Both the position numbers and the translations under genes were made by a program. From Streptomyces pactum (GTDB lineage Bacteria > Actinomycetota > Actinomycetes > Streptomycetales > Streptomycetaceae): a stretch of 64,000 bases of DNA. Below, in pieces: positions 51,836 through 59,290 of the stretch; the stretch's first letter is position 1; every line of letters begins with the position of its first letter. Below the pieces are notes generated by a model. The model was not told the origin of the DNA. It made no database searches and saw nothing but the letters and a program-made list of their open reading frames with translations. The stretch lies in NCBI RefSeq assembly GCF_002005225.1, contig NZ_CP019724.1, forward strand, positions 7,544,001 through 7,608,000, written 5' to 3'.

Positions 51836-52337
51836 CGGATGGACCTCTGACATGCGTTCTGGCTGTTCAGGGGTGGGGGTGGGTAGTTCGTGATCTTGGC
51901 GGTCCGGGGCGGTCGTGAGCGGGTTCTGGCGTTACTGATGCTGACTCAATGCTGTCTTCGGTGACGGTCGTCAGGTTGTTCCGGCGGTCGGGCAGGTCTC
52001 GGTCGGGGCGCCGCTGTCGGCAGTATCGGCCTTGCGGCAGCGAAGGTCACGCGAGAGGACGACTTGGGCGCGCCCTGGTCGGCGTGCATGACGTGATGCG
52101 GCGAAAGTCGAGGCATCGCAAGGTGGGGGTAGAGCTGCGGCGGCTGAGCGGGTGCTGCGTTATCCGGCTTCTCCGCAGCCCTTCGGGCGTCCGGTTGCTG
52201 CTGCTGGCGGCCCACTCGGTGGGAGTGACGTGGTCGATCGGGGCTTGGACGAGCGGTCCCCGGGAGCGGTGCGGGAACGCCTGCCAGGCAGCCGACCGGC
52301 CGCACGAGCACACTCCCCGGTGCGTAATACTCTCCGG
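51836..52337. other. Unassigned 500-bp stretch at the edge of the low-GC island
   Basis: No supported gene is seen on either strand. Short open frames exist but lack ribosome sites and known motifs. It may be debris of a mobile element, since the neighbouring island contains one, but I found no transposase motif here. Confidence 0.4.
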
Positions 52338-52826
52338 ATGAGTTCGCGCACTTCCCCGGTCAGCCGGGCGATCACGATACGGCGGGCCGTCGCACGGGAT
52401 GCCAAACGGCTCACGCGGCTCGTGCGTGGCTCGAGTGCCTACGAGGGCAAGTACGCAGCCGCAGTCGCGGGCTACCGGGTCGGTCCCGATTACATCGAGG
52501 CCCACCGCGCCTTCGTAGCCGTCGGCGGCGACGAGCATGGAGGCCGGGTCCTCGGGTTCTACTCGCTCGTCCTCGATCCACCGGAGCTCGATCTGCTGTT
52601 CGTCGCCGACGAAGCGCAAGGGCGGGGTATTGGACGACTGCTCGTCGCACACATGCGGTCCGAGGGCCGTGCCGCCGGGCTCGACCGTGTCAAGGTCGTG
52701 TCGCATCTTCCCGCCGAGGACTTCTACCACCGCGTCGGTGCAGTACGGACCGGGACCGCGCCGGCGAACCCGCCCGCCGTGCCGTGGGACCGTCCCGAAT
52801 TCGAGTTTCGCATTTCTTCGGAATGA
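52338..52826 (+). CDS. GNAT family N-acetyltransferase
   Basis: This 162-residue protein has the GNAT fold with the acetyl-CoA loop LLFVADEAQGRGIGRLLVAH (R/QxxGxG/A) and the C-terminal VKVVSHLPAEDFYHRVGAV strand-helix. The ATG at 52338 follows TCTCCGG. The acceptor is unknown. It is the first intact gene of the low-GC island, on the opposite strand from the RiPP genes. Confidence 0.85.
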   Translation: MSSRTSPVSRAITIRRAVARDAKRLTRLVRGSSAYEGKYAAAVAGYRVGPDYIEAHRAFVAVGGDEHGGRVLGFYSLVLDPPELDLLFVADEAQGRGIGRLLVAHMRSEGRAAGLDRVKVVSHLPAEDFYHRVGAVRTGTAPANPPAVPWDRPEFEFRISSE

Positions 52827-52959
52827 CGCGGTGTGCCGGTTCGCGGGGCACCGGCTTCGCCTGCACGGTGGGGGCATGCGGGAGTCGCTGGACGCCGGGC
52901 GCTCTGTGTGTGCCGTCGTCTCAGCCCTGGCGGGGGATCGCCTGGCCTTTCCTGGCGAC

Positions 52960-53390
52960 TCCCTCACCACAGTCCTTGCCCCGTGGAGCTTGGCCGGCGG
53001 GCGTCGGTGCGGCCGGGGGAGGAGCCGGCCCACATGCCATCGGATCCACCGCGTGGATCGCCCGTCCACGGTTCGCCGGGCCGGTCCGCCGTCCGGCGCT
53101 GGCCCGGGGCACCCGTCAGCTCCTCCAGGACGGCGTCGAAGACGGTGGAGTCGTTGACGTTGCCGGGCATGACGTCGCGGCCAGGGGCAGGCCGCGATCG
53201 TCGTTCCGGTAGGTCACACCACGGAGCACCGGTCCGCAACCGCCACAGCACCCCGTTGATCACCTGCAGGTGATCCCGTCACGGCCGCCCACGACCGTCA
53301 ACCCTCGGTAGCAGAGGTGCTGTCCGCTCCCACGCCGCATCCGTCAGCTCACCACGGCCCACCACGAGATCGATTATCAGGAAAGTGACC
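52960..53390 (-). mobile_element. IS5-family transposase remnant
   Basis: The minus strand reads GELTDAAWERTAPLLPRVDG, RGRP, an in-frame stop codon, then [20 protein letters not shown], the N terminus of IS5-type DDE transposases. It jumps straight to a piece of the catalytic part ([20 protein letters not shown]), so the middle is deleted. No complete ends were found. It lies directly downstream of the HExxH gene. Confidence 0.75.
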
Positions 53391-53441
53391 TCGCCTCACA
53401 CCGAGATCATCACGATGCGGGACAAGGACCGAAGCCGACTC

Positions 53442-54566
53442 TCAGAACACGGCCTCGTGGTTCGCCGCTACCTGTTCCTGCAGATCTCCGAGCGCATCCA
53501 GCAAGTCGCCGTTCACCTGGTCGACATAGGGCTTGATCAGTTGAGTGAGCGGTTCCTTCAGGAAACCGCACAAGGCTGCCTGTCGCCTCTCGAGCGCCCG
53601 CGCAGTCCCGAACGCCCCGGTTTCCGCTGCCGCCGACCAGAAGTTGAACAGGCCATACCACACGAAGCAGGCTTGCAGGAAAGGCCTGACCGGCAGTCGG
53701 CGACCGGTCCACGGACTGGGAACCATCGGTTGCATGCTGTACAAGGAGTCGTCGAGCACCCAACTCTCCTGCATTTCGTGCATGTACAGAAATCCGTGGA
53801 TCGACTCGTGGACCACACCTTCAGCGACGAAAGCCTGATCCACGGCCGAGAACTGCGGATTTCCCAGAACCGAGCGTCCGACGTACTGGGCACAGGATCC
53901 CGAAGAGAAGACTCGCTCCCGGTCATCCCGGAGGAGCACCAGGGCCTTGGTGAATCTTGCGACGAACGCTGACGTTTCGCTGCTCACCGAAGCGATTCCG
54001 TCGATGGCTGCCGACAACTTCGCCAGCGCTTCCTCCCTCTCCCGCCCTGCCAACGGGGCTCTGCCCTCGGGCTGGGTGAAGCGCATCCCTTGTACATCGA
54101 TGCCAAGGGCATAGGGACTGTCGAGATCGAGAGCTGCCACGCCCTTGATAGAGGGCCCCTCGACGACCTGGCCGCCGGGAAGGATCTGAGTGTCCCCCAA
54201 GGCCGTCCAGAGCGGCTCCACGACGGGCTGTGCGACGCTGCCCTCGCGCGCCATCTCCGCCTGCACGGATCGAATGAGGAATTCGGTTGCCGCCGAAGCA
54301 TCTCGCGCGGGGTCGGGCCACATCAGCAGTCGCGTCGTCTCGGGCGCCAGCAACAGCCTGGTGAGCGACTCGTCGCTCAATCCGGTCAGCTTGGCGACGA
54401 TTTCCGCTTCGACATCGGGGCGGGTAGACCTTACCTCGGTAAGGAACTGCCCCAGGTGCCGCCCCACCAAATCGGAGTAGCCACGGTGGATCTCATCGCA
54501 CACTTCACTTGTGCCACACCAGCCAAGTGCCTGATGCAGTCTTTTGAGGGGTGACAAGTCCTTCAT
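53442..54566 (-). CDS. HExxH-motif RiPP modification protein (probable peptide beta-hydroxylase)
   Basis: This 374-residue protein contains H253-ESI-H257 in FVAEGVVHESIHGFLYMHEM, and a conserved Tyr/Trp-rich segment (FLQACFVWYGLFNFWSAAAE) follows. It matches the HExxH putative peptide-modification family that accompanies radical SAM/SPASM maturases. From memory, related HExxH domains fused to radical SAM enzymes have been shown to hydroxylate the beta carbon of peptide residues using 2-oxoglutarate, so the metal site need not mean a protease. The ATG overlaps the stop codon of the radical SAM gene (ATGA). The N-terminal 200 residues are helical and may bind the precursor. Confidence 0.85.
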   Translation of the reverse strand: MKDLSPLKRLHQALGWCGTSEVCDEIHRGYSDLVGRHLGQFLTEVRSTRPDVEAEIVAKLTGLSDESLTRLLLAPETTRLLMWPDPARDASAATEFLIRSVQAEMAREGSVAQPVVEPLWTALGDTQILPGGQVVEGPSIKGVAALDLDSPYALGIDVQGMRFTQPEGRAPLAGREREEALAKLSAAIDGIASVSSETSAFVARFTKALVLLRDDRERVFSSGSCAQYVGRSVLGNPQFSAVDQAFVAEGVVHESIHGFLYMHEMQESWVLDDSLYSMQPMVPSPWTGRRLPVRPFLQACFVWYGLFNFWSAAAETGAFGTARALERRQAALCGFLKEPLTQLIKPYVDQVNGDLLDALGDLQEQVAANHEAVF

Positions 54567-55810
54567 CCCGAGATCGATTGTGCGACGGCGTTGTTTGATC
54601 GAGAAGTGACGGCGTGAAAGGCCATTTCCTTCCGAACGGTACCGACGATGTGTTCGATCACCGCGAGCAGGGATTCGCAGTGCACGCTCGGGTTGGAGAA
54701 CGCGTTTTTCTTCGACCATCGGTGCGGCATCTCGCCGCCGCCACACAGCCCGTAGACAGGGCATCGCAGACAATCGTTCGGCAGAATTTCCTGGTTCCTC
54801 AGCCCCATGCGATAGAGCTCTGTCTCCCGCAGCCTCTCGATCGGGTGCCTGCGGACATCAAGACCCGTGAGCGTCATGCCGTCACCGCAGATCCGAAGCA
54901 TGTCCAGGGGTTCCAGGCTGCCATCGGTTTCCACGACCACATCGGTCACCGGCTGGGCACCCAATGCGCTGATCTGTGATTCACCGCCCAGGATCAGATG
55001 AAGCAGCGCTTCGAACCATCTGATCCGCACGCCTGGATCCGCATTACCGTACCACTCGTCGAACAGATCGATATAGTATTTGCCGAGAAGGTCAGCGTTC
55101 CAGGGCGGCCCTTCCTCATGGTGGTAGTCCGGCCAGAGGAAATCCATGTTCCGGACACCGATATCGAGCAAGTGACGGAACACCTCCGTCCCAGGGAATC
55201 GCGGGTCGGCCACGACGAGGATTCCCCAGGGAGGCGATTCGGCGCCTTGAGTCACCAGAAGGTCGATCGCTTTGCGGACGCGGCTGTAGCTTCCCTTTCC
55301 CTGGTGGTTCACTCGATGACGATCGTTCCAGACTGCCGGCCCGTCGAGGCTCACTCCGACCTGGACTCCATGGCTCGCGAACAGTGAGAGCCAGTCCGCA
55401 TCCATGAGAACGCCGTTGGACTGCAGGGTAACGGAGAGCCGCACGTCTGCCGGCGCCATTCTCCTGACATCGTCCAGAAAGCGCGTCATCCAGGGCTTGC
55501 CGACCAGAAGCGGCTCTCCTCCGTGAAGTGCGACTACCGCTTCGGTGATGCCGTTCCGGGACGCATACTCCGTAATCTCCCGAATGGCGGCTCGGGCGAC
55601 CTCCAAGGACATGACCCGGGGGCGGGTCAGATGGGTCGTATCACCCTTGTTGTAGATGTAGCAATAGGTGCAGTCCAGGTTGCATCTCGAAGAGATCTTG
55701 AGGATGCAGGAAACAGGAAGAGCAATTCCTGTAGATCGCCGTTCAGGAAACGAATCCTCTTCACCAGAAGGGCGTCGAAACGCGCGATCTCGCATACGAG
55801 ATGAAATCAA
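54563..55810 (-). CDS. Radical SAM/SPASM peptide maturase (cyclophane-forming type)
   Basis: This 415-residue enzyme has the radical SAM cluster C43-NLD-C47-TY-C50 and the SAM-binding ALHGGEPLL. A C-terminal SPASM domain (about 345-375: DCLRCPVYGLCGGGEMPHRW, then NPSVHC) provides auxiliary cluster ligands. The CGGG-PHR-W/Y-NPSV-C pattern is that of FxsB-like maturases, which link an aromatic ring to a nearby beta carbon. The TTG at 55810 is preferred because AAGGGG stands 7 bases before it; the ATG at 55795 has no ribosome site. Codons such as AAA, TAT and TGT are frequent, unlike neighbouring chromosomal genes. Confidence 0.9.
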   Translation of the reverse strand: MISSRMRDRAFRRPSGEEDSFPERRSTGIALPVSCILKISSRCNLDCTYCYIYNKGDTTHLTRPRVMSLEVARAAIREITEYASRNGITEAVVALHGGEPLLVGKPWMTRFLDDVRRMAPADVRLSVTLQSNGVLMDADWLSLFASHGVQVGVSLDGPAVWNDRHRVNHQGKGSYSRVRKAIDLLVTQGAESPPWGILVVADPRFPGTEVFRHLLDIGVRNMDFLWPDYHHEEGPPWNADLLGKYYIDLFDEWYGNADPGVRIRWFEALLHLILGGESQISALGAQPVTDVVVETDGSLEPLDMLRICGDGMTLTGLDVRRHPIERLRETELYRMGLRNQEILPNDCLRCPVYGLCGGGEMPHRWSKKNAFSNPSVHCESLLAVIEHIVGTVRKEMAFHAVTSRSNNAVAQSISG

Positions 55811-55886
55811 GGACCAACCCCTTGCCGATTCTGTTCAACGTTCCGGACTGACCGATCCCACTACCGTCCAGCAGCGGCGCGGTTTC

Positions 55887-56090
55887 CTACATCTCCGGAA
55901 TTTCGTTCCAGCTCCTGCTGAAAGTGAGGCGGTTGTACCCGACGGTTACAGGCGGCTGCCCGCCTTCGGTGACCTCAAGCGCCGCGCGAAGAATGGGATT
56001 GAGGTTTCCGACGGCGTCCCTGAGAGCGCCAAGGTCCTTGATGGGGACTCGCACCTCTGCCTGCTGGGGCTTTTGCGCGCCATTTTCCAT
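55887..56090 (-). CDS. RiPP precursor peptide (candidate)
   Basis: This 67-residue peptide has a leader (AEVRVPIKDLGALRDAVGNL, NPILRAALEVTEGG) with hydrophobic helix spacing and a C-terminal core ending VTVGYNRLTFSRSWNEIPEM. GGAGGG precedes the ATG at 56090 and the radical SAM gene begins 76 bp downstream, so position and ribosome site support a true gene. The core holds three aromatic-X-charged triplets: Y53-N-R55, F58-S-R60 and W62-N-E64. It has no cysteine and no FxSxx terminus. Three-residue cyclophanes would be the expected products. Confidence 0.82.
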   Translation of the reverse strand: MENGAQKPQQAEVRVPIKDLGALRDAVGNLNPILRAALEVTEGGQPPVTVGYNRLTFSRSWNEIPEM

Positions 56091-56474
56091 GATGCCCTCC
56101 GAATTCCGAGATTGAGCGAATCAACGAGACTCGCGAGTGGGTCCGACGCTAGCCAGCCTGTGGCTTCATGGCCATCGAGACATTCCAGGGTTTGCTCCAA
56201 CGGTGGTTTCGTCCACCCGAGCAGCCGTATCGACAACGACGGTCAGGCAGGGACTGACACGCTTCCTGTCGATGGGCTGACAGCGGTTGACTGCACGGGG
56301 CATGGCGTTGACAGGCGCCGCATGCGAGCGCGCTCGGGAGGACCTACCGCGGATTCCGGTCGGTGCTTGAGTCGACGGAGGGCGCGGTCATGGCGGTCTT
56401 ATGCTGCAGCGCGCCGCCGGCCACGGCACGGTCGTCGAGCGGCCGCTGCCGGTGGCACGGCCAAGGGCGAGATC
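56091..56474. other. Upstream region of the RiPP operon
   Basis: This spacer should contain the RiPP promoter on the minus strand. A TAGCGT at about 56150 on that strand could be a -10 box, but no clear -35 partner is visible. No gene is supported. Confidence 0.4.
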
Positions 56475-56906
56475 GTGCTGGAAGGAACGGACCGGAGCGG
56501 CGGAGTGAAGCGGCCGCACACCTTCCGGGCCGAGACGAGCGCAGCCGTCTTCCGCCGTCGACTCCTCGACGGTGGCGGCCATGGCTGGCTCCCGCAGCCC
56601 GCCGACGGCACGTGGCGGTGCGACCGACGTGGACGAGAGCGACGAGGACAAGGGGAAGGCGGGGCAGTGGGCCTCTTTCTGCTGCAGATGAGCGACGACT
56701 CCGAGATGATCCTCACCGCGGGCCGAGCCACACGCACGGACACCGGAGAAGTCGGGTTCGAGAGGATCGACGCCCGCGGCAACCGGTCCCACTTCTGCAC
56801 GATCGCCGGCGGGCAGATCAAGGCCGCCAACGCGCGCAAGACCGACGACAACGGCGCGGAACGCTGGGAGCCCCAGCCGTCCACCGGACGCTGGTGGGCG
56901 TACTGA
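56475..56906 (+). CDS. Hypothetical protein, start uncertain
   Basis: The frame reads LEGTDRSGGVKRPHTFRAET, later FLLQMSDDSEMILTAGRATR and ends RWEPQPSTGRWWAY at 56906. Charge and composition look like a real small protein, especially the last 80 residues. Starts are uncertain: GTG 56475 has little upstream, while GTG 56667 follows AGGGGAAGGCGGGGCA. I recognise no family. It may also be a decayed gene at the island edge. Confidence 0.35.
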   Translation: MLEGTDRSGGVKRPHTFRAETSAAVFRRRLLDGGGHGWLPQPADGTWRCDRRGRERRGQGEGGAVGLFLLQMSDDSEMILTAGRATRTDTGEVGFERIDARGNRSHFCTIAGGQIKAANARKTDDNGAERWEPQPSTGRWWAY

Positions 56907-56958
56907 CCGCCGGCAGGACGGGCCCCACGCCGGGAGAGGGCCAGGCCCTGCCTCGCCT

Positions 56959-57384
56959 CTACCGTTGGGTCAGCTTCCTGTCGGACTCCGCCTCGAGTCG
57001 TCGCTGCAGTGTGGCGGCGAAGTCCTCGGCCATCGTCAGGCGCGCGCGCAGCGTCTCGCAGCGCGCGTCGGCCACCTTCCGGTAGGAGTCCAGGCGCTCC
57101 CGCAACCGCTCCCTCTCCTCGCCGGTCGGCGAACCGTCGGGAGTGGCGAGCCGGTCGGTGATGTCCAGCAGGTCCCGCATCTCCTCGAGGGAGAAATCGA
57201 GCGGCTTCATGCGGCGGATCACCATGAGCCGTTCGAGATCGGCCTCCGTGTAGAGGCGAAAGCCGCCCTTGCTGCGCGTCGAGGGAATAACGAGGCCGAC
57301 TTCTTCGTAGTGACGGATGGTGCGCAGCGACAAACCGGTCCGTTCGGCCACCTCGCCGATCTGCATCTGCCGCTGTTCCGTCAT
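56959..57384 (-). CDS. MerR family transcriptional regulator
   Basis: This 141-residue MerR has the winged helix MQIGEVAERTGLSLRTIRHY and GLVIPSTRSKGGFRLYTEAD, then a coiled-coil dimerisation helix (residues 85-135). No metal-binding cysteine pair is present. The ATG at 57384 (MTEQRQMQ) was chosen because similarity begins right after it. A perfect GTGAACCAGTTCAC dyad lies 49 bp upstream, and a SulP transporter is encoded divergently 400 bp away. Confidence 0.9.
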   Translation of the reverse strand: MTEQRQMQIGEVAERTGLSLRTIRHYEEVGLVIPSTRSKGGFRLYTEADLERLMVIRRMKPLDFSLEEMRDLLDITDRLATPDGSPTGEERERLRERLDSYRKVADARCETLRARLTMAEDFAATLQRRLEAESDRKLTQR

Positions 57385-57432
57385 CGTCCTGCCATCTCCC
57401 TCTGTTGTCCGCCTGGGCTTCGAAACGGTTAA

Positions 57433-57446
57433 GTGAACCAGTTCAC
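57433..57446. promoter_or_regulatory. Palindromic operator upstream of merR
   Basis: GTGAACCAGTTCAC is a perfect 14-bp palindrome 49 bp upstream of the MerR ATG, the natural place for its autoregulatory site. Confidence 0.6.
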
Positions 57447-57506
57447 GTGAGGTCAATCACAGGATCTTGGGTGCTGTTTACCTGCGCTTCACAAGCCGCA
57501 CCTCGC

Positions 57507-57527
57507 ACTCTGCCCTCACGTCAGAGT
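57507..57527. promoter_or_regulatory. Dyad in the merR-sulP spacer, repeated after sulP
   Basis: ACTCTG-CCCTCACGT-CAGAGT is a 6-bp inverted repeat. A related site CTACT-GTCACGTTAG-AGTAG lies at 59783-59802, and the two share TCACGT(C/T)AGAGTAG. Spacing and TAACGT/GACGTGA content are typical of MerR-class promoters. The rest of 57385-57787 shows no gene. Confidence 0.5.
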
Positions 57528-57787
57528 AGACTGTTCACGTGCTCGCCTTGGCCGTCAATCGCAGGGTAGAGGCGAAACCGCAGTGGTGTCGGCCCCGATC
57601 GGGTCTCTGGCGGCACTGAAGACTTCCGGGCAATGATGCCCGACCGGCGACCCGAGGGTTGCCGCCCTGTCCGGCAAGGCCCCCGCCGAGGCGGCTGGGC
57701 TGCCGGACGATTCCTCGTCGGAATCACGTACGCCGAGCGCGTGTGTCCAGCGGCAACGGACGCGTGCGCCTGAACAGAAACGGTTGC

Positions 57788-59290
<1,503 letters not shown>

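Follow-up and report, generated by a model that had tools for sequence, protein, structure and literature searches.

A conserved three-gene locus of Streptomyces pactum predicted to make a cyclophane-bearing, possibly hydroxylated peptide

Results

A precursor, a maturase and an HExxH protein form one conserved block

We analysed a stretch of 64,000 nucleotides from Streptomyces pactum (contig NZ_CP019724.1, positions 7,544,001 to 7,608,000; the window), in which three genes lie in a tight array on the minus strand (53442-56090) and encode a 67-residue precursor peptide, a radical S-adenosylmethionine (SAM)/SPASM maturase and a protein with an HExxH motif. The initial annotation had proposed that these genes form a cluster for a ribosomally synthesized and post-translationally modified peptide (RiPP), and they were found where it had placed them, with a GGAGGG ribosome site ahead of the precursor, a CxxxCxxC motif and SPASM region in the maturase, and an HExxH gene overlapping the maturase gene by the four bases ATGA, confirming its coordinates (Table 1). 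The full trio recurs in two other named Streptomyces records, Streptomyces sp. sk2.1 (L010) and S. harenosi (L011), both of which likewise carry the maturase and the HExxH protein as two open reading frames (ORFs) with the same overlap. The proteins of the trio are 89-97% identical in L010 and L011 (94% and 92% for the maturase), and across the block the DNA of the window is mostly 80-100% identical to theirs per 60 bases, almost without gaps. This block begins at about 56233 (about 56290 against L010), which is ~140 bases (L011) or ~200 bases (L010) ahead of the precursor, and stops where the HExxH gene ends; outside it, on both sides, the identity drops to background and the flanks are unrelated. 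Given these limits of conservation, the three genes are the entire unit. No transporter, protease, regulator or FxsC/TPR genes were found in the conserved three-gene block, in agreement with the compact set first described, and the GNAT and MerR genes near the trio in the window lie outside it.

The ratio of non-synonymous to synonymous substitution rates (dN/dS), taken pairwise among the three loci, was 0.05, 0.17 and 0.17 for the precursor, 0.16-0.22 for the maturase and 0.25-0.30 for the HExxH protein, and the differences in the precursor ORF fell mostly at third codon positions (1/1/11, 3/1/9 and 2/2/8 at positions 1/2/3 in the three pairs). The precursor is under purifying selection and, since block conservation, low dN/dS and mostly third-position differences go together, the trio is a single selected unit. 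The RiPP proposal had depended on related genomes keeping the 67-residue ORF, and both L010 and L011 keep it. The precursor is rare: among 392 sampled genomes of Streptomyces it was found in one, the window's own. A full-length match to the HExxH protein was also found in this genome only, with partial matches (E 1e-4 to 7e-4) in 4 of 391 others; in both of these genus searches, scoring was confined to the top candidates from a permissive first pass. A profile of HExxH relatives, run against 396 genomes of the phylum with the best candidates per genome scored, gave the same genome and partial matches in four. A plasmid search with the precursor gave no match, and none of 17 pattern matches in viral contigs was a relative.

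Table 1. Features of the three-gene locus and its surroundings, in window coordinates
Feature	Position	Strand	Basis or remark
Precursor gene, 67 residues, ATG start	55887..56090	-	ORF; conserved in L010 and L011
Ribosome site of precursor, GGAGGG, four bases before ATG	56095..56100	-	Sequence
Leader element Asn31-Pro-Ile-Leu34 (NPIL)	55989..56000	-	Like elements in YhhA-type and fxs leaders
Triad 1, Tyr52-Asn53-Arg54	55929..55937	-	Invariant in three loci
Triad 2, Phe57-Ser58-Arg59	55914..55922	-	Invariant in three loci
Triad 3, Trp61-Asn62-Glu63	55902..55910	-	Invariant in three loci
Radical SAM/SPASM maturase, 415 residues, TTG start with AAGGGG upstream	54563..55810	-	
Extra SPASM cysteine, Cys308	54887..54889	-	Alignment of 24 radical SAM enzymes
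Stand-alone HExxH protein, 374 residues, putative alpha-ketoglutarate peptide beta-hydroxylase	53442..54566	-	TIGR04267, ChlH homology
HESIH metal-binding motif, residues 253-257	53796..53810	-	Both His and the Glu unchanged throughout an alignment of 8 sequences that includes the window's
SPWTG loop, residues 284-288	53703..53717	-	Mark of HExxH branch
Inverted repeat GGTGG-ACGAAA-CCACC	56202-56217	-	Upstream conserved region; identical in three loci
IS4/5-type transposase-like fragment	52964-53263		Directly downstream of HExxH gene; below Pfam's cut-off

The core of the precursor carries three aromatic triads

The precursor can be divided into a leader of about residues 1-50 and a core of about residues 51-67 (GYNRLTFSRSWNEIPEM). 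The core sequence VGYNRLTFSRSWNEIP is invariant across the three loci, and over the longer stretch, Leu30 through Pro65, no residue differs among them. No NCBIfam or Pfam model matched the precursor at a limit of E 10. Its only aromatic residues are Tyr52, Phe57 and Trp61, and it contains no His and no Cys, the lack of Cys leaving no place for thioether chemistry. The three aromatics lie within the last 16 residues and head three non-overlapping aromatic-X-X triads, in the layout YNR-LT-FSR-S-WNE-IPEM. In 200,000 shuffles, 1.3% placed all three aromatics in the last 16 residues and 0.29% had non-overlapping triads as well, in a test that was devised after the triad pattern had been noticed. 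Since aromatic-X-X triads here accompany a SPASM maturase of the superfamily that includes three-residue cyclophane formers, the locus is a candidate triceptide locus. A single Thr or Ser spacer between triads appears to recur among related peptides. The leader element NPIL is a possible enzyme-recognition site, judged by its resemblance to the NPA[IL] present in 4 of 7 aligned YhhA-type leaders; a comparison of the precursor with the YhhA profile was weak (hhalign E 0.03, probability 1.7%).

According to the available part of PMC11002830, three-residue cyclophane formers join residue i to residue i+2: YhhB links Tyr and His to Arg, with Tyr joined at the C-beta of Arg, XncB links Trp to Arg or Asn, OscB links Trp to Asn or Asp, and Phe-to-Asn or Phe-to-Ser links are also found among these enzymes. 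Triad 1 thus has direct precedent in that text, because a Tyr-to-Arg link made by YhhB is reported there. It is possible, although we regard it as doubtful, that only one or two triads are closed (YNR alone, for example) and that the remaining core serves as a recognition element. Such partial closure would fit with Tyr-to-Arg being the sole pair of the three named in the part of PMC11002830 at hand, and with the recurrence of Y-[ND]-[RK] in YhhA, Rhodococcus and Nitrospira peptides, whereas the invariance of all three triads in the three loci speaks against it; yet nearly the whole peptide is invariant too.

The maturase lies outside the FxsB, YhhB and ChlB groups

The TTG start of the maturase was preferred because a nearby in-frame ATG is a Lys codon in L011. 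The CxxxCxxC motif corresponds to Cys43, Cys47 and Cys50, and the other cysteines are at positions 35, 308, 347, 350, 356 and 378. The nearest solved structure in the PDB was ChlB (9gm3, E 1.8e-60), followed by anaerobic sulphatase-maturating enzymes, in keeping with the kinship to cyclophane formers that had been suggested for this protein. The best NCBIfam model was FxsB (TIGR04269), at 320.6 bits under a cut-off of 370, and the next was YhhB (NF041707), at 305.3 bits under a cut-off of 445; for comparison, a match exceeded the FxsB cut-off in 123 of the 199 genomes sampled from the genus. Phylogenetic analysis of 25 maturases gave the trio a branch of its own (100/100), outside a starred branch of 14 rows (95/94) to which the FxsB/Haa, YhhB and ChlB rows belong, together with a single row from Paraburkholderia. 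Placing the trio maturase with FxsB/Haa was rejected by the approximately unbiased test (p-AU 0.005), as was placing it with YhhB (p-AU 0.016), while a grouping with the Rhizobium pair L015 and L017 was not rejected (p-AU 0.071), though the best tree does not show it. The tested groups were fixed after the first tree had been seen, the outgroup XyeB sits on a long branch, and the tree does not settle the deep order beyond the 14-row branch.

An extra SPASM cysteine, Cys308, is present in 10 of the 24 aligned maturases (the trio, two Rhizobium, Rhodococcus, Calothrix, Gloeobacter, Spirosoma and Polymorphobacter) and missing from XyeB and from 13 aligned rows of the 14-row branch (all FxsB/Haa and YhhB rows and the Paraburkholderia row); ChlB, in a separate alignment, also lacks it. 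This distribution is an independent character that agrees with the placement in the tree. Judged by tree and cysteine together, the maturase is a branch separate from FxsB, YhhB and ChlB. In PADLOC, the maturase was only similar to viperin models (5.6e-11), and the HExxH protein gave no match.

The initial annotation had taken the trio for a compact variant of an fxs locus, and this part of it could not be upheld. That the trio is an ordinary fxs locus stripped of its other genes is already contradicted and appears very improbable: although FxsB is the best NCBIfam profile and a separate HExxH gene occurs, by pattern, in 13 of 40 fxs loci, the maturase scores under the FxsB cut-off and is barred from the FxsB/Haa group, it carries the extra Cys308, its HExxH partner falls in another branch (see below), and the precursor gave no match to FxSxx-COOH (TIGR04268, limit E 10). 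The annotation had also named an ordinary FxSxx peptide, regularly accompanying close relatives of the enzymes, as evidence that would count against it, and no FxSxx peptide was found in the window's own genome among the 23 candidates scored out of 431 from a first look.

Those 40 fxs loci of Streptomyces were hand-picked among the matches listed, 20 with maturase ORFs of more than 700 codons and 20 with ORFs of 397-539, and a sequence pattern found a separate HExxH gene in 13 of them and none in 27. Reading for FxS-type precursors gave a candidate in 9 of the 13 loci with the HExxH gene and in 20 of the 27 without; candidates of other types (those of L052 and L059, which end in FYA, and second ones elsewhere) were left out, and the stretch for L063 was shorter than the rest. 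The leader element [NH]P[VIA][LI] (as HPVL) was present in 9 of 9 fxs precursors with the HExxH gene versus 0 of 20 without, a lead only, since it was spotted by visual inspection of the final 30 residues and the loci are mutually related.

The HExxH protein belongs to a branch marked by SPWTG

Against TIGR04267, a model of peptide beta-hydroxylases, the HExxH protein scored 44.6 bits (46.1 bits in the genome search), above the cut-off of 40, which bears out the tie to peptide beta-hydroxylation drawn earlier from its motif. A profile of eight HExxH sequences, that of the window included, matched ChlH (8s5f) at E 9.5e-20, and the single sequence did so at 2e-4. SPWTG follows the HExxH motif in all six members of one branch, which are the trio and three Rhizobium plasmid proteins. 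The same position reads PWR in ChlH, in the YhhB-fused proteins and in nearly all listed fxs-type proteins (the exceptions being L069 with PWS and L082 with PWK), PWQ in Nitrospira and SPA in Rhodococcus. A tree of 31 HExxH regions, in which several rows are long and midpoint rooting was used for drawing only, united the trio with the three Rhizobium plasmid proteins (99/97), ChlH with the YhhB fusions (98/99) and the fxs-type proteins with each other (90/96, unstarred). By loop and tree, the HExxH protein is a branch separate from ChlH and the fxs-type proteins. Gln298 was considered as a changed metal ligand (His in ChlH, Rhizobium and Nitrospira) and dropped, as His and Gln were both common in a wider listing, with Val in Rhodococcus. 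A second TIGR04267 protein is encoded in the same genome (L003, G000:C1:2182100-2182570; 179.8 bits) and groups with the fxs-type proteins.

An unlikely alternative assigns the cyclophanes to the maturase and makes the HExxH protein a peptidase that removes the leader, filling the role of the missing protease. Its zincin-like motif, the lack of a protease in the conserved block and weak astacin matches (E 0.25-0.35) would agree with such a role, whereas the score above the TIGR04267 cut-off, ChlH as best solved relative and the lack of a match to any Pfam family, peptidase or other, all argue against it.

Surroundings of the trio

Searches of the window from 52000 to 58000 gave no Rfam match at gathering thresholds. 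A promoter scan found none, and terminator-like hits were limited to one small hairpin (55808-55824) over the ribosome site and TTG start of the maturase gene, which also forms in L010 and L011 and in the window is no better than shuffles (z 0.55). The inverted repeat GGTGG-N6-CCACC upstream of the precursor, unchanged in the three loci, is a possible operator. Insertion-sequence remnants or copies lie downstream of the trio in all three loci: the IS4/5-type fragment in the window, an IS110-like element in L010 and DDE_3 in L011, ~0.9 kb away. These traces would fit a mobile unit.

Discussion

Overall, we consider it fairly probable that the trio is a complete three-gene RiPP operon whose product is a triceptide with up to three rings, which would then be beta-hydroxylated by a stand-alone HExxH enzyme, with leader removal and export supplied from elsewhere. 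This reading is supported by the homology to both ChlB and ChlH, the TIGR04267 score above cut-off, the triad array, the invariant core and the low dN/dS. From these features we infer the rings, their positions and number, the contact with the leader, the order of steps, and the hydroxylation and its site. The maturase would bind the leader, probably through the NPIL stretch, and would connect each aromatic ring, through one of its carbons, with the beta-carbon two residues on (Tyr52 with Arg54, Phe57 with Arg59 and Trp61 with Glu63), giving up to three three-residue cyclophanes. By analogy, the HExxH protein would be an iron/alpha-ketoglutarate enzyme of zincin-like descent that acts after ring closure. 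According to the accessible text of PMC12636437, which cites Morishita et al. 2024, ChlB/ChlH of Chlorogloeopsis is a fused radical SAM and alpha-ketoglutarate HExxH enzyme, and ChlH hydroxylates a beta-carbon on a preinstalled cyclophane scaffold. The enzyme of the trio may beta-hydroxylate at least one core residue, and Asn53 or Asn62 would be our guess for the likeliest site because reported sites of HExxH enzymes include Asn (PMC12636437) besides His, Asp, Phe, Gln and Pro (PMC13060819), as far as the available portions of both papers go. The recognition of such HExxH peptide hydroxylases is recent, and the portion of PMC13060819 available describes the reactions they carry out as not yet predictable. 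In the published literature on these enzymes and on triceptides, with limited coverage of subscription papers, we recognised no account of the trio.

Leader removal and export would be carried out by enzymes encoded elsewhere in the genome, unless the HExxH enzyme cuts the backbone as PflC does. In the accessible text of PMC12636437, PflC and PosC combine hydroxylation with oxidative backbone cleavage at a C-terminal tetrapeptide. It seems improbable that the HExxH protein likewise hydroxylates and oxidatively cuts the backbone, in which case the three genes would shorten their product with no need of a protease; the cut of these relatives at a C-terminal tetrapeptide (same text), the short tail IPEM after the last triad and the lack of a protease in the conserved block are in line with it, but the precursor has no ARMD-like tail, and no characterised member of the SPWTG branch was found in the literature searched.

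Several points weigh against the operon reading as a whole. Its product chemistry is read from sequence, and Phe-Arg and Trp-Glu fall outside the pairs named in the available part of PMC11002830, so that triads 2 and 3 may stay open. The SPWTG branch, for which alpha-ketoglutarate use is an analogy, differs from the PWR of ChlH, the YhhB-fused and nearly all listed fxs-type proteins, and the TIGR04267 score is only 4.6 bits above the cut-off. A structure model of the HExxH protein from 5 sequences was too poor for use (mean predicted local distance difference test, pLDDT, 40.9). Asn or Asp at mid-triad, tried in the fxs survey as a mark of an HExxH partner, was present in 7 of 9 precursors with the gene versus 11 of 20 without, no clear association.

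A wider reading, to which we give little credence, would make the trio the first recognised member of a third cyclophane-plus-HExxH RiPP lineage, with an extra-Cys maturase and an SPWTG HExxH protein, spread over Streptomyces and Rhizobium plasmids; Tyr-Arg, Phe-Arg and Trp-Glu cyclophanes would occur together, and the HExxH enzyme would oxidise and cut the backbone in a self-sufficient three-gene pathway. What the trio offers is a minimal case, with one short Cys-free substrate, one maturase and one stand-alone HExxH enzyme, both enzymes outside the named families compared. It could be used to test whether rings on Tyr, Phe and Trp of the same peptide can be the work of one maturase, and whether alpha-ketoglutarate is still used in the SPWTG branch.

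Comparison with known systems

Two Rhizobium plasmid loci (L015 and L017) resemble the trio in having an extra-Cys radical SAM enzyme and a stand-alone SPWTG HExxH protein of the same starred branch, but their likely substrate is a protein of 632 or 380 residues and not a short peptide. These proteins, encoded on conjugative plasmids (L015:2661-4559 and L017:3402-4544) directly upstream of the enzyme pair, contain 13 and 8 copies of H-x-Q-[TN]-H-S in an array that reads HDQ-T-HSE, and by this repetition are likely multi-site substrates; the Rhizobium relatives thus suggest that a similar enzyme pair can act on a many-repeat protein. On a Rhizobium etli plasmid (L016:4273-9091), the neighbours of an HExxH gene from this branch are a longer, different radical SAM gene, a JmjC-domain gene and a peptide of 77 residues, so that the HExxH gene appears to swap partners. 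A plasmid of Rhodococcus sp. DMU1 (L028) shows the same order as the trio, with a 65-residue peptide, an extra-Cys radical SAM enzyme and a stand-alone HExxH protein, but the core is YDKHTSNHLRN (YDK-HTS-N-HLR), SPWTG is absent and the HExxH protein stands weakly beside that of the window (82/49). A caspase-domain gene (L028:7231-8283) lies tail to tail with the HExxH gene of this Rhodococcus trio, and NACHT, Piwi or TIR-like genes lie near other relatives. The extra-Cys maturases of Calothrix, Gloeobacter and Spirosoma adjoin small ORFs that fit the triad pattern less neatly, with no HExxH gene annotated nearby.

Among the named systems, the yhh loci share with the trio the compact order of precursor, maturase and oxygenase (YhhA/YhhB/YhhC), Tyr-X-Arg triads and, in some YhhA peptides, the NPA[IL] leader element. 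The YhhA triads read YDR-x-H[HN]R-HNR, as YDRMHHRHNR or, in Vibrio, YDRTHNRHNR. However, the trio maturase scores under the YhhB cut-off and outside the YhhB clade, the conserved block has no YhhC-like gene, and the precursor gave no match to YhhA (NF041705, limit E 10). Two Nitrospira-group loci (L013:1461-4273 and L014:2050-4892) carry YNRTYHRHNR in peptides that match YhhA, together with a maturase, an oxygenase and, after these, a stand-alone HExxH gene, so that two different oxygenases stand within one locus; L013, where this was tested, matches YhhB and YhhC besides the added HExxH gene. The FxsB/FxSxx-COOH system has a related maturase and, in some loci, a separate HExxH gene with the HPVL leader element, but its precursor is another and both its enzymes belong to other branches. 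ChlB/ChlH has the same two enzyme types as the trio, acting on one peptide, and provides the best solved structures for both trio enzymes, but they form one fused polypeptide there and two genes here; ChlB groups with YhhB, and ChlH groups with the HExxH part of the YhhB fusions and reads PWR, not SPWTG. On these comparisons of profile, tree and marker residues, the trio is not an fxs, yhh or chl-fusion locus. In essence, its predicted mode of action, a triceptide pathway with an added hydroxylase, is a known one, while both enzymes and the precursor are distinct and in that respect new.

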